From assembly GCA_902773635.1 (NCBI GenBank), contig CACYFH010000003.1, forward strand, positions 26,614-90,613: a stretch of DNA of 64,000 bases, read 5' to 3'. Source of the DNA: an uncultured Ruminococcus sp. GTDB taxonomy: Bacteria > Bacillota > Clostridia > Oscillospirales > Acutalibacteraceae. Shown one piece after another: positions 23,171 through 61,779 of the stretch (positions are counted from its first letter, which is position 1; each line of letters begins with the position of its first letter). The notes beneath the pieces are model-generated. The model made no database searches. It was not told the DNA's origin and worked only from the letters and a program-made list of their open reading frames with translations. The position numbers and the translations under genes were made by a program.

Positions 23171-23422
23171 GATATGAAAAGGCAAGGATTAGGAGAGTAG
23201 TCCCGCGGAAGCTGACAGAGAGGACGGCAAATGCTGAAAGCCGTCTGAGCGAAAGCCGGATGAAATGCACCTATGAGCCCGCGGCGGGAAAGGATATCAC
23301 AGTCCCGCGTATCGCCGCGCGTCAGCCCGCGTTAAGGGCACAAAGAGCGTTATATATCGGTATAACGCTGAATTTGGGTGGAACCACGGCGCTGTCGTCC
23401 CTTCGGACGGCGGCGTATTTTA
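23171..23422 (+). promoter_or_regulatory. T-box leader specific for tRNA-Cys, with terminator
   Basis: Stem I shows GGAGAGTA near 23191, the AGAGAG and distal-loop ATGCTGAAAG elements, and a specifier-loop TGAAATGCACC with codon UGC (23266-23268), which is cysteine. The diagnostic T-box sequence GGGTGGAACCACGG is at 23376-23389. A terminator stem CGCTGTCGTCC/GGACGGCGGCG followed by TATTTTATT ends near 23422. Uncharged tRNA-Cys should favour the antiterminator and turn on cysE-cysS. The specifier fits the downstream genes, which supports the reading. Confidence 0.92.
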
Positions 23423-50864: not shown

Positions 50865-52211
50865 TTACGCGAGGTGACCCTTCTTGGTGATGACGTCGAT
50901 GACTTCGTCGACGTACTTCTCGCAGACTTCGTCGGAGCCAGCTTCGACCATGACGCGGATGACGGGCTCGGTACCGCTCTCGCGGACGAGGATGCGTCCG
51001 TCCTCGCCGAGCTCGGCGGCGACCTTCGCGACGGCTGCCTGCACGTCGGGGTCGTTCTGCGCGTCGGGCTTGGATTTTACGCGGACGTTCTTGAGCACCT
51101 GCGGATAGAATACGCAGGGAGCCGCCAGCTCGCTCATGGGCTTCTCCTTCGCGAGCATGACTTCCATCATCTTGAGAGAGGTGAGGATGCCGTCGCCGGT
51201 GGTGGCATACTTGCTGAAGATGATATGGCCGCTCTGCTCGCCGCCGATGCGGTTGCCGGTCTGAACCATGTTCTCGTAAACGTACTTGTCGCCGACCTTG
51301 GTCTTTTCATACTCGATACCGACCTTGTCGAGCGCCTTGTAGAGGCCGAAGTTCGACATGATGGTGGTGACGACCTTGTTGTTCAGGAGCTTTCCGCGCT
51401 CCTTCATGTACAGGCCGTAGACGTAGAGGATGTGGTCGCCGGTGACGACGTTGCCCTTCTCGTCAACGCAGAGGCAGCGGTCGGCGTCGCCGTCATAGGC
51501 AAAGCCGATATCCAGCCCCTTCTCCACGACGAACTTCTGTAAGTGCTCGATATGGGTGGAGCCGCAGTCGGTGTTGATGTTATAGCCGTCGGGAGCGTCG
51601 TTGATGACGTAGGTTTTGGCGCCGAGGGCATTGAACACGCCCTTAGCGATATTCCACGCGGCGCCGTTCGCGACGTCGAGACCGACCTTCACGCCCTTGA
51701 AGCTGTACTTGCTCATGGAGATCAGATAGCCGATGTAGCGGTTACGACCCTCAACGTAGTCGACCGTTCTGCCGATGTTCTCGCGCTCGGCGACGGGGAT
51801 GTCGATCTTGCCGTCGATGTATTCCTCGACCTTTAAGAGGGTCTCCTCCTCCATCTTCTCGCCGTTGCCGTTGAGCACCTTGATGCCGTTGTCATAGAAC
51901 GGGTTGTGCGACGCGGAGATCATGATACCGCAGTCGAAGTCGTCGATGCGGGTGATGTAGGCGACGGAGGGGGTGGTGGTGACGTGCATGATGTAGGCGT
52001 CTGCGCCGCTTGCCATCAGGCCGGTGCAGAGCGCATACTCGAACATGTAGGAAGAACGGCGGGTGTCCTTACCGATGAGCACCTTCGCCTTCTTGCCCTG
52101 ATTCGCGCCGTAATACCAGCCTAAGAAGCGACCGATCTTGATGGCGTGGTCAAAGGTCAGATCCTTGTTGGCTTCGCCGCGGAAGCCGTCTGTACCAAAA
52201 TACTTGCCCAT
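50865..52211 (-). CDS. glmM: Phosphoglucosamine mutase
   Basis: Interconverts glucosamine-6-phosphate and glucosamine-1-phosphate on the way to UDP-GlcNAc. The 448 residues show the N-terminal GKYFGTDGFRGEAN, the phosphoserine loop ISASHNPFYDNGIKV near residue 97, metal loop DGDADRC near 240 and sugar/phosphate-binding ESGTEPVIRVM near 413. The start MGKYFGTDGFRG is standard for GlmM rather than general phosphomannomutases. It is the last gene of the operon nagB - GlmU C-terminal-like gene - glmM that follows the glmS-type ribozyme. Confidence 0.94.
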   Translation of the reverse strand: MGKYFGTDGFRGEANKDLTFDHAIKIGRFLGWYYGANQGKKAKVLIGKDTRRSSYMFEYALCTGLMASGADAYIMHVTTTPSVAYITRIDDFDCGIMISASHNPFYDNGIKVLNGNGEKMEEETLLKVEEYIDGKIDIPVAERENIGRTVDYVEGRNRYIGYLISMSKYSFKGVKVGLDVANGAAWNIAKGVFNALGAKTYVINDAPDGYNINTDCGSTHIEHLQKFVVEKGLDIGFAYDGDADRCLCVDEKGNVVTGDHILYVYGLYMKERGKLLNNKVVTTIMSNFGLYKALDKVGIEYEKTKVGDKYVYENMVQTGNRIGGEQSGHIIFSKYATTGDGILTSLKMMEVMLAKEKPMSELAAPCVFYPQVLKNVRVKSKPDAQNDPDVQAAVAKVAAELGEDGRILVRESGTEPVIRVMVEAGSDEVCEKYVDEVIDVITKKGHLA

Positions 52212-52217
52212 GTGGGA

Positions 52218-52874
52218 TTACCTCTTTTCTACGATTTCTCCGCTGTTTTTGTAAATGCAGTTCTCCGGAACGACGCCGCGCACGCAGGAGGTGGGGTAGA
52301 CGTTGGAGTGTCTGCCGATGACGGTGCCGGGGTTGCAGACGGCGTTGCAGCCGACCTCAACGTAATCGCCCAGCATCGCGCCGAACTTCTTGAGTCCGGT
52401 CTCGATCTTCTCGGTGCCGTTGTGAACGACGACGAGCTGCTTGTCGGACTTGACGTTGGAGGTGATGGAGCCGGCGCCCATGTGGGAGAAGTAGCCGAGG
52501 ATGGAGTCGCCGACGTAGTTGTAGTGCGGGGTCTGCACATGATCGAACAGGATGACGTTCTTGAGCTCCGCGGAGTTGCCGACGACGCAGTCAGCGCCGA
52601 CGAGAGCCGAACCGCGGATGAACGCGCACTGGCGCACCTCGGTGTTCGGCCCGATGATGCAGGGAGCGCCGAGATAGGCGGAGTCAAAGACCTTCGCGGT
52701 CTTGTGTACCCAAACCTGGGGAGCGCGCTCCTCATAATCGTCGCCGAGGGTCGCGCCAAGGGCGATGATCATGTCCTTGATGCCCTTGAGAGCCTCCCAA
52801 GGATAAGTGAACTGAGAAAGATAATCTTTCGCTAAAGTGTGGTCAAGGTCATATAAGTCCTTGATAGTATACAT
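52218..52874 (-). CDS. Left-handed beta-helix protein like the GlmU acetyltransferase domain
   Basis: A 218-residue protein, probably acting on glucosamine-1-phosphate. After a helical N-terminus (1-60) comes a hexapeptide-repeat beta-helix (about 65-215). The GlmU acetyltransferase active-site pattern H-x2-Y-VGD...GAG-x-IT-x-N is preserved as HYNYVGDSILG and HMGAGSITSN. The N-terminal uridyltransferase domain of GlmU is absent. The ATG at 52874 has AGGAG nearby and overlaps the nagB stop by one base. Its place between nagB and glmM supports GlcN-1-P N-acetylation. Databases often label such proteins UDP-GlcNAc pyrophosphorylase, which the sequence does not support. Confidence 0.82.
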   Translation of the reverse strand: MYTIKDLYDLDHTLAKDYLSQFTYPWEALKGIKDMIIALGATLGDDYEERAPQVWVHKTAKVFDSAYLGAPCIIGPNTEVRQCAFIRGSALVGADCVVGNSAELKNVILFDHVQTPHYNYVGDSILGYFSHMGAGSITSNVKSDKQLVVVHNGTEKIETGLKKFGAMLGDYVEVGCNAVCNPGTVIGRHSNVYPTSCVRGVVPENCIYKNSGEIVEKR

Positions 52875-53665
52875 TACAGTCTCTCCTTCTTCTCGATATC
52901 GAGGAAGTATTTGTAAGCGCCGACGGTCAGCTCGTCGCAAGCCGCCTCATCGCAGGCGATGATCGCGCCGTTGTGCATCTGGAGTGCGGAGCAGGTCCAC
53001 TTGTGGCTGACAGAGCCCTCTACGGTCTCAGCCAGAGCCTTCGCCTTGTTGTGGCCGTTGATCAGGATGAGAACTTCCTTGGAGTCGGTAACAGTACCTA
53101 CGCCGACGGAAAGCGCCTGAGCGGGAACAGCCTCGGGATCGTTGCCGAAGAAGCGGGAGTTGACGATGCGGGTGTCGGTGGTCAGGTTGCGGACGCCGGT
53201 GCGGGAGGAAAGGCTGGTGAACGGCTCGTTGAACGCGATGTGGCCGTCAACGCCGATACCGCCCATGAAGAGGTCGATGCCGCCGTAGGAAGCGATCTTC
53301 TCCTCATAGCGGGCGCACTCGCCCTCGGGATCGTCGGTCATGCCGTTGAGGATGTTGATGTTCTCGGGCTTCATATCGACGAGGTGGTTGAAGAAATTGT
53401 CGTGCATGAAGTACCAGTAGCTCTGGTCATGCTCGTGGGGCAGGCCGAGATATTCGTCCATGTTGAAGGTGACGACGTTCGCGAAGCTGACCTCGCCCGC
53501 CTTGTTCATGCGGGCAAGCTCCTTGTATACGCCGATGGGGGAGGAGCCGGTCGGCAGACCGAGGATGAAGGGGCGATCCTCCTTGTGGGCGTTGATCTTG
53601 GCGGCGATGTAGTTCGCAGCCCATTTGCACATTTTATCGTAATTGTCCTGAATAATAACTCTCAT
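52874..53665 (-). CDS. nagB: Glucosamine-6-phosphate deaminase/isomerase
   Basis: Reversibly converts glucosamine-6-phosphate to fructose-6-phosphate and ammonia. The 263 residues have the phosphate loop [11 protein letters not shown] near 39, catalytic-aspartate region FNMDEYLGL near 70 and [14 protein letters not shown] near 136 with the active-site histidine and glutamate. It is usually catabolic and linked to nagA or PTS genes. Here nagA is absent and the gene leads an operon with an acetyltransferase-like gene and glmM, behind a glmS-type ribozyme. A biosynthetic direction is therefore plausible. GGAGGT precedes the ATG. Confidence 0.95.
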
Positions 53666-53712
53666 TGTTTACCTCCATATGTTGTTGGTAGTCGTTGGAG
53701 GCTTCTCCGCTT

Positions 53713-53752
53713 TGTGGGATTGCCACGGCTGCGGCGCAGCCTCGCAATGACA
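53713..53752 (-). repeat. Palindromic repeat B, inverted copy, in the nagB leader
   Basis: CATTGCGAGG...CGTGGCAATCCCAC on the minus strand, lying between the ribozyme and nagB, so it is part of the nagB leader RNA. Confidence 0.75.
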
Positions 53753-53814
53753 AATATTTTACGTTGAGCAGGTGTTGGGAAAACCTCTGTTACAGTGTTG
53801 ATTCTGCTTTTTCT

Positions 53815-54022
53815 TTTCTCCCTGACGGCGCACCCTTCGCAGCAGTTCTTTATCGTAAATACCTTCCGAGTATACCCATGCGCTGCATTCGCCGTGGCGG
53901 CATCCGCCGAATCTTTCGATAACCGCCAACCTCGTCAACCGTTTCCGGTCCCGGCGCTAACAAACTCCCTGATCCTCCTTCTGCGGAGCTGTTTTACTAT
54001 ATGGGGAGGTTCCGGCGCTTTA
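53815..54022 (-). ncRNA. glmS-type self-cleaving ribozyme upstream of nagB
   Basis: On the minus strand the scissile site is A-GCGCCGGAAC, with predicted cleavage between 54019 and 54018. The conserved core follows in order: TTAGCGCCGGGACCGGAAA (P2/P2.1), GGTTGACGAGG, then TTATCGAAAGATTCGGCGGA with flanking GGCGG/CCGCC arms, and an extended P3 closed by ACGGCG/CGCCGT. These match the glmS ribozyme consensus, which uses GlcN6P as cofactor for self-cleavage. No glmS gene follows; the next gene is nagB, about 150 bases downstream. Edges are approximate. Confidence 0.93.
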
Positions 54023-54065
54023 TGCCTTTTTTGGCTTTAAAACAGGAAAAACCCCATTCCTATGA

Positions 54066-54094
54066 ATTTTACCATATATAGAGGTAAAAGTCAA
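54066..54094 (-). promoter_or_regulatory. Promoter of the ribozyme-nagB operon
   Basis: On the minus strand TTGACT (54094-54089) and TAAAAT (54071-54066) with a 17-base spacer. Transcription would begin about 40 bases before the ribozyme cleavage site. Confidence 0.7.
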
Positions 54095-55867: not shown

Positions 55868-56845
55868 ATGATCAAAATCGGAATTCTCGGATACGGCAAC
55901 CTCGGCAGAGGCGTTGAGGCGGCTGTAAAAATGAACAGCGATCTGGAGCTCGTCGCGGTCTACACCCGCCGCGACCCCGCCTCGCTCAAGATCAACACCG
56001 AGGGTGTGGAGGTGCGCCCGGTCGCTCTGCTCGAAGAAGGCAAGGAGGAGATCGACGTGCTCGTGATCTGCGGCGGTTCGGCGACCGACCTGCCTGAGAT
56101 GACCCCGAAGTTCGCTTCCCTCTACAATGTGATCGACAGCTTTGACACCCATGCGCGCATCCCGGAGCATTTCGCGAATGTGGACGCCGCCGCGAAGAAA
56201 GCCGGAAAGATCGGCATTATCTCCGCGGGCTGGGATCCGGGCATGTTCTCGCTCAACCGCGTGTATGCGGACGCTGTGCTCCCCTGCGGCAAGGCTTATA
56301 CCTTCTGGGGCAAGGGCGTCAGCCAGGGTCACTCCGACGCGGTGCGCCGCATCGAGGGCGTGAAGGACGCGCGTCAGTATACCATCCCTGTTGAAGCGGC
56401 GGTCGACGCTGTCCGCAGCGGCTCTCAGCCGGAGCTGACTACCCGCCAGAAGCACACCCGCCTCTGCTATGTTGTTGCTGAGGAAGGCGCTGACAAGGCG
56501 GCGATCGAGAAGGCGATCGTCACCATGCCCAACTACTTTGACGAGTATGACACCACCGTAGAGTTCATCACCGAGGAGGAGATGAAGCGCGACCACAGCG
56601 GTCTGCCCCACGGCGGTATGGTCATCCACAGCGGCGTGACCTCCGAGGGCACCAAGCATGTGATCGAATACAGCCTGAAGCTGGATTCCAACCCTGAGTT
56701 CACCGGCTCTGTGCTTGCCGCGTGCGCGAGAGCAGCTTACCGTATGAATCAGGAGGGCGTCTGCGGCGCTAAGACCCTGTTCGATATCGCGCCCGCTTAT
56801 CTCTCGGCGCATTCTGCCGACGAGCTCCGCGCGCATTTTCTGTAA
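55868..56845 (+). CDS. ddh: meso-Diaminopimelate D-dehydrogenase
   Basis: NADPH enzyme making meso-diaminopimelate directly from tetrahydrodipicolinate and ammonia, for lysine and cell wall. The 325 residues have the nucleotide loop ILGYGNLGRGVE near residue 5, CGGSATDLPEM near 67, SAGWDPGMFSLNRVY near 124 and the GKGVSQGHSDAVRRI segment near 150 conserved in Ddh. The frame is open upstream to 55544, but the ATG at 55868 follows an ACGGAGG site and matches homologue starts. It suggests a wall built with meso-DAP, consistent with MurE. Confidence 0.95.
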   Translation: MIKIGILGYGNLGRGVEAAVKMNSDLELVAVYTRRDPASLKINTEGVEVRPVALLEEGKEEIDVLVICGGSATDLPEMTPKFASLYNVIDSFDTHARIPEHFANVDAAAKKAGKIGIISAGWDPGMFSLNRVYADAVLPCGKAYTFWGKGVSQGHSDAVRRIEGVKDARQYTIPVEAAVDAVRSGSQPELTTRQKHTRLCYVVAEEGADKAAIEKAIVTMPNYFDEYDTTVEFITEEEMKRDHSGLPHGGMVIHSGVTSEGTKHVIEYSLKLDSNPEFTGSVLAACARAAYRMNQEGVCGAKTLFDIAPAYLSAHSADELRAHFL

Positions 56846-61667: not shown

Positions 61668-61677
61668 GAACAAAAAG

Positions 61678-61761
61678 CAGGGGAGTCCGCTCAAGCGGGC
61701 TGAGATTAGGCTGTGTTGCCTTGACCCTTTCACCTGATGCGGATCATGCCGACGTAGGAAG
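61678..61761 (+). promoter_or_regulatory. TPP riboswitch (THI element)
   Basis: Conserved pieces appear in order: CAGGGGAGTCCGC, GGGCTGAGATTAGG, then GACCCTTTCACCTGATGCGG and ATCATGCCGACGTAGGAAG. Thiamine pyrophosphate binding should favour the terminator just downstream and turn off the thiamine-precursor importer. Confidence 0.96.
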
Positions 61762-61779
61762 CTCATGATATAGTTTGTG

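Follow-up and report, generated by a model that had tools for sequence, protein, structure and literature searches.

A glmS ribozyme upstream of nagB in an uncultured Ruminococcus and its relatives

The glmS ribozyme is the standard example of an RNA dedicated to a single gene; in the 2011 survey by McCown et al. all but two of these ribozymes reportedly lay in glmS mRNAs. Here we describe a member of this class in front of nagB, the gene for glucosamine-6-phosphate deaminase, in a 64,000-nucleotide stretch of the genome of an uncultured Ruminococcus sp. (GenBank assembly GCA_902773635.1, contig CACYFH010000003.1, positions 26,614–90,613; hereafter the window). The nagB gene is followed by a gene for a stand-alone acetyltransferase (AT) and by glmM, which encodes phosphoglucosamine mutase. 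The ribozyme class is known; what is new is its target enzyme, NagB, and a leader element, a hairpin that we call P0. We consider it probable that the module provides a feedback-controlled, ammonia-using entry into aminosugar synthesis that runs through NagB, is controlled by the ribozyme and usually operates beside GlmS.

On the RNA side, the closest described system is the B. subtilis-type pairing of glmS ribozyme and glmS mRNA (RF00234), which shares with the window the ribozyme family, the core, the cleavage motif and a place in the 5' leader of an aminosugar gene. By analogy, OFF control by glucosamine-6-phosphate (GlcN6P) through RNase J would be expected here (PMC3997798). Unlike the B. 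subtilis type, the window ribozyme is linked to nagB, AT and glmM instead of glmS, has a conserved hairpin with a Shine-Dalgarno-like loop at its cleavage site, and carries an expanded P3 arm. The hairpin recalls the STAB-SD leaders of Bacillus, in which a strong Shine-Dalgarno sequence near the 5' end and without a start codon can stabilise the mRNA (PMC3997798); here the motif lies in the loop of a hairpin that cleavage would remove, and a stabilising role is what we would expect of it.

On the enzyme side, the window protein is a full-length equivalog match to the E. coli-type hexameric NagB (TIGR00502) with its catalytic residues kept. It differs from that type in having Thr, Gly and Arg in the activator site, a glmS ribozyme, glmM alongside and a genus without a nagA match. 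The deaminase of Giardia lamblia has been reported to be anabolic and insensitive to N-acetylglucosamine-6-phosphate (GlcNAc6P), although Giardia is a eukaryote and its enzyme keeps the equivalent of Arg158, has lost other activator residues and has no ribozyme in the account given (PMC4281351). Akkermansia muciniphila has a glmS-less genome, like a separate clade described below, and its NagB is not activated by GlcNAc6P; it was, however, measured to be unable to make GlcN6P at physiological levels, and the available part of the paper mentions no ribozyme (PMC5902328). A search of titles and abstract openings in the open-licence PMC literature returned no report of a nagB-linked glmS ribozyme, and none is mentioned in the available parts of PMC11602151, PMC7967978 and PMC10668854.

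The ribozyme and operon of the window

The ribozyme sits in the leader of a nagB-AT-glmM mRNA and not in the usual setting of a glmS mRNA (Table 1). Its Rfam match exceeds the gathering score of 37 bits (E 3.3e-7 over the whole window), and NagB and GlmM both exceed their curated cut-offs, so the order of glmS ribozyme, nagB, GlmU C-terminal-like gene and glmM proposed in a preliminary description of this DNA holds. The junctions are as short as described there: the nagB stop codon and the AT start codon, ATG, overlap by one base (52874), and 6 bases separate the AT stop from the glmM start. The clear promoter of the same description holds in part; a promoter-like site is present upstream of the ribozyme and is plausible, but its count is no better than chance and not significant.

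R1, a covariance model made from 18 relatives with a short P3 arm, matches the window ribozyme over all 135 of its positions. Alignment with relatives showed that the P3 arm is expanded in the window species, and the 3' end given by Rfam is therefore too early. The expansion, about 50–70 nt at 53828–53900 on the minus strand, recurs in the closest kin (L021, L022 and L148), lowering Rfam scores and shifting boundaries. Both-side changes at 14 of 33 predicted pairs (18 sequences) support the helices of the subgroup by covariation.

The catalytic core letters and the A-GCGCC cleavage motif do not vary in any of the 31 aligned rows. This bears on the possibility that loss or change of its ligand has left the ribozyme a constitutive processor or mRNA-end maker that does not sense GlcN6P. 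The nagB-type copies do score lower against Rfam (36–73 bits, compared with 75–98 for six glmS-linked copies outside the genus), but in the window and its closest kin the expanded P3 arm accounts for the low scores, and with an unvarying core we regard this explanation as extremely improbable. The preliminary description had placed cleavage at 54019/54018. That site belongs to a second AGCGCC, at 54014–54019, and none of 37 related loci has such a copy within 150 nt upstream; the alignment instead predicts cleavage at 53958/53957.

The acetyltransferase exceeds no curated NCBIfam cut-off. Its best match, TIGR03992, falls short of the 292 bits required and covers profile positions 212–393, and the protein resembles the C-terminal part of archaeal, ST0452-type and GlmU proteins. 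GlmU itself was matched in the genus only at positions 2–246 of 452, the uridylyltransferase half (17 of 22 genomes at E≤1e-40; the other five, including the window genome, had no match), which suggests that AT may supply the other half.

Table 1. Features of the nagB operon and its leader in the window
Feature	Coordinates	Strand	Basis
Promoter-like TTGACT-17-TAAAAT, TG before second hexamer	54066..54094	-	1 found, 0.6 expected in shuffles
Pre-cleavage hairpin P0, 3' strand abutting cleavage site	53959..53993	-	Covariation in 53 sequences
AGGAGG, Shine-Dalgarno-like stretch between P0 strands	53974-53979	-	Leader sequence
glmS ribozyme, P1-P4.1, expanded P3	53777..53962	-	RF00234 44.9 bits at 53828-53969; R1 129.8 bits
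Predicted cleavage site A(53958)/G(53957) in A-GCGCC	53957..53958	-	Alignment with relatives and Rfam alignments of relatives
nagB ribosome-binding site GGAGG	53672..53676	-	Read from sequence
nagB, glucosamine-6-phosphate deaminase, 263 aa	52874..53665	-	TIGR00502 379.9 bits, cut-off 236.9; PDB 7lqm 2.8e-100
AT, stand-alone left-handed beta-helix acetyltransferase, 218 aa, GlmU/ST0452 C-terminal-like	52218..52874	-	TIGR03992 137 bits, below cut-off; PDB 5z09 2.5e-21
glmM, phosphoglucosamine mutase, 448 aa	50865..52211	-	TIGR01455 542.2 bits, cut-off 447.55

Recurrence of the ribozyme at nagB loci

We looked for the arrangement in 36 genomes of the window's genus (genus sample), in 23 relatives from its order (order sample) and in the best 80 NagB loci of a scan of named genomes, to which all counts of 80 refer. 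Ribozymes were counted from R1 and Rfam only; a regular-expression search for the core recovered just 20 of the 37 carriers that R1 found among the named loci. Fifteen of the 36 genus genomes carry the ribozyme, one copy each, and 14 of these copies exceed the gathering score. The ribozyme in all 15 adjoins an orthologue of the window NagB, with AT and glmM next in line; in G015 and G024 the operon genes are split over two contigs and are presumably linked. Among the 80 named loci the 37 ribozymes lie 33–297 nt before the module. RF00234 independently matched all 35 carriers tested, 34 of them over its cut-off, and none of 15 tested non-carriers. One of the carriers, L153, is Ruminococcaceae bacterium P7, a cultured isolate. 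One further R1 match, at L213, was set aside as a chance hit (16.8 bits, E 0.35).

The first gene after the ribozyme in the 37 loci is nagB in 30, AT in 6 and glmM in 1. In five loci (L161, L163, L165, L180 and L186) the 6 kb that follow the ribozyme and nagB contain neither AT nor glmM nor glmS, which points to nagB itself as the target; L184 resembles them, but with 2.1 kb. Alternatively, the ribozyme could be aimed at glmM and AT, with NagB a passenger of the operon. The seven loci that begin with AT or glmM would fit this, as would L259 (genome G494), where the ribozyme precedes AT and GlmM and nagB is absent from the 16-kb contig. The position of nagB directly behind most ribozymes, and alone behind five, argues against it, and closing GlmM while its substrate GlcN6P builds up would presumably worsen the build-up, so that we find a passenger NagB very unlikely.

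NagB, AT and GlmM are clustered in all six possible orders among the named loci, and in three (L173, L194 and L202) glmS is added to the cluster. In genome G086 one ribozyme lies 33 bases before nagB and a second lies before glmS. Of G494 and G512, which are congeners of each other, the first has a nagB-type ribozyme before AT-GlmM (130 bits) and the second has one before glmS (127 bits). The same RNA therefore serves both nagB and glmS. In a class-wide sample of 391 genomes, 65 had an R1 match. Of the 30 best-scoring class loci, a choice biased towards nagB-type copies, 25 have glmS after the ribozyme, four have nagB or AT-glmM (L228, which is the window, L229, L230 and L232) and one has neither, so the nagB setting is a minority within the whole family.

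The NagB tree requires 13 changes of ribozyme label, four of them forced by starred branches, and its bootstrap has not settled, so it does not distinguish one gain followed by losses from several independent gains. The operon clade has 69 rows, 20 of them without a ribozyme. It also takes in a Flexilinea and a Spirochaetales metagenome-assembled genome (MAG), which suggests lateral transfer or misbinning.

Some copies deviate in ways that may reflect assembly error or decay: NagB matched over its first 111 residues only (L232/L261, 7700–8032, G270), a nagB without about 18 middle residues (L137, 3325–4061, G006), and a glmM read as two overlapping pieces (L133, 2540–3776, G027). An orphan glmS ribozyme (78 bits; L005, 1501–1667, minus strand, the same place as L241) follows, after about 110 nt, a gene that resembles 4-alpha-glucanotransferase and was judged by eye to be malQ, and faces a convergent hydrolase-like gene, with no glmS or nagB within 1.5 kb.

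The direction of NagB and its relation to GlmS

In the pathway that we propose, NagB would make GlcN6P from fructose-6-phosphate and ammonium, GlmM would convert it to glucosamine-1-phosphate, and AT would acetylate this to N-acetylglucosamine-1-phosphate for a separate uridylyltransferase. Abundant GlcN6P would act as the cofactor of the leader ribozyme, and the cut would take away the 5' hairpin, including its Shine-Dalgarno-like loop, and create a 5'-OH end accessible to RNase J, silencing the operon. In most carriers this route would run parallel to a glutamine-dependent GlmS whose gene has no ribozyme.

We infer the anabolic direction, which the preliminary description had also favoured and which remains the best reading of the sequence, from the biosynthetic partners of NagB, the genome with ribozymes on both nagB and glmS, a changed activator site and the gene content of the genus. 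That description had singled out nagA as a gene to look for; it has no match at E≤1e-30 in the 36 genus genomes, and was matched at this threshold in 15 of the 23 order relatives. It had also held that a ribozyme-linked glmS elsewhere in the genome, together with induction of nagB by aminosugars, would mark this as a catabolic copy, and the only glmS ribozyme found in the 1.66-Mb window genome is the one at nagB. The window NagB keeps the catalytic residues Asp72, Asp141, His143 and Glu148 (E. coli numbering). Ser151, Arg158 and Lys160, which belong to the seven residues that bind the activator GlcNAc6P in E. coli NagB (PMC4281351), are replaced by Thr, Gly and Arg in the window and in all rows of at least 66% identity, except for two from Spirochaetota (L223 and L227) that keep Ser, Arg and Lys. 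These changes are consistent with an anabolic NagB.

Several observations weigh against this direction. The activator-site changes do not prove anabolic use, since distant NagBs (35–44% identity) also lack Arg158 and Lys160, and Ser151Thr and Lys160Arg are conservative. NagB is not obviously needed for synthesis, because glmS remains in most carriers: it is over cut-off in 12 of the 15 in the genus and in 26 of the 35 carriers that the named loci led to, some of which may belong to species already in the genus sample. A ribozyme is missing from 43 of the 80 named NagB loci, 25 of which have neither AT nor GlmM in the locus. Most of the genomes are MAGs, so that absences and the two-ribozyme genome could reflect incompleteness or binning. 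The Akkermansia enzyme, which cannot make GlcN6P at physiological levels, has a Km of 41 mM for ammonium and 5.5 mM for fructose-6-phosphate, and the organism, lacking GlmS, needs N-acetylglucosamine (GlcNAc) or N-acetylgalactosamine (PMC5902328). Finally, nagA is over cut-off in 15 of the 35 named-locus carriers, where catabolic use is possible.

The main rival to anabolic NagB, a drain, builds on several of these points. In it NagB would turn GlcN6P into fructose-6-phosphate, and the ribozyme would shut this drain at high GlcN6P, so that allocation to the cell wall would show positive feedback or bistability. The classical role of NagB is that of a deaminase, and the Akkermansia kinetics, the nagA genes of the named-locus carriers and the persistence of glmS would all suit such a role. 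The genus, however, has no nagA match, and the activator site that would respond to the catabolic signal is altered. Such partners as NagB has belong to the forward pathway, joined by GlmS in three loci, and with the ribozyme on both glmS and nagB in one genome, opposite enzymes under a single OFF switch would be expected to cancel. We therefore disfavour the drain as unlikely and continue with NagB as a synthetic enzyme.

The preliminary description had gone further and placed NagB in the position of GlmS. For most carriers we reject this in view of their glmS genes. That there is no glmS is true of the operon; none was found over cut-off in the window genome either, but that genome is 74.85% complete and may have one in its missing part. 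Of the other two genus carriers without a glmS over cut-off, G033 has it in sub-cut-off pieces and G006 has none. The sole ribozyme of each genus carrier is the one at nagB, and glmS there has none of its own: R1 run over the glmS loci of nine of the 12 carriers and of other genus members gave at best 21 bits (E 0.027, L045).

Replacement may apply to a separate NagB clade without the ribozyme, supported in the tree, in which 18 of 24 genomes have no glmS over cut-off (those with glmS are L201, L203, L204, L210, L216 and L218). In the order sample eight relatives lack glmS, and all four that have this NagB are in that group (Fisher p 0.008, calculated post hoc). Because nagA is often present (over cut-off in 17 of 28 such genomes), a need for GlcNAc like that of Akkermansia is an alternative for this clade. 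Two further members of the genus, G016 (99% complete) and G025 (83%), have no glmS over cut-off either and carry a different nagB, 37–38% identical, directly after glmM (L114, 2277–4427; L116, 8350–10500), perhaps a second recruitment.

A ruminant host or organ is named in 32 of the 80 record titles, counted by eye. The rumen is rich in ammonia, which would favour the synthetic route through NagB. The repeated pairing of ribozyme and nagB argues on genetic grounds for a 'deaminase' that acts in synthesis, and suggests that cell-wall sugars have a second entry route, fed by ammonia and under ribozyme control. It opens the long-standing question of which way NagB runs to direct tests. It also matters for efforts to turn glmS-ribozyme agonists into antibacterials and for metabolic models in which NagB has a catabolic role alone.

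The leader hairpin and other features

P0 was assessed in 53 distinct leaders of nagB-type ribozymes. In the window five of its six pairs form, one of them a G-U. Across the leaders all six tested pairs vary on both sides and 86% of cells pair, although the sixth pair fails in 23 of the 53 rows. Both-side changes were counted in 54 cells, compared with 18.0 +/- 4.9 in shuffles that ignore the relatedness of the leaders; none of 500 shuffles reached 54, and sliding the partner strand by one column left only 20 or 10. Stem length is less telling: among 36 nagB-type leaders, P0-like stems have at least five pairs in 33 and at least six in 17, but shuffled leaders often reach such stems too (50% and 24%), so the evidence for P0 is the covariation count.

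GGAGG or AGGAG occurs in the 46-nt leader in 50 of the 53 sequences (16% in shuffles), and no start codon at a constant distance from it was seen by eye. Among 24 glmS-linked ribozymes, only two leaders have a stem of six or more pairs (19% in shuffles), and 12 have GGAGG or AGGAG within 45 nt upstream of the cleavage site (6% in shuffles) with no obvious start codon (L001, L003, L004, L233, L234, L244 and others). We infer that P0 with its Shine-Dalgarno-like loop acts as an mRNA stabiliser that cleavage removes, which suggests a route from ribozyme cleavage to mRNA decay. The fullest version of our proposal is a mobile module of gut bacteria in which a NagB that has lost its catabolic activator site makes GlcN6P from ammonia beside GlmS under a transplanted ribozyme and replaces GlmS in the separate clade, with cleavage removing a stabilising Shine-Dalgarno hairpin; we hold it tentatively, doubting it slightly more than we believe it.

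Close to the operon, at 55871–56845 on the plus strand, lies a gene for meso-diaminopimelate dehydrogenase (TIGR01921, 430 bits), presumably another ammonium-fixing enzyme of cell-wall synthesis. Two further RNA elements on the plus strand of the window are above their Rfam thresholds, a T-box leader at 23176–23405 (111 bits) and a TPP riboswitch at 61669–61777 (64.5 bits).

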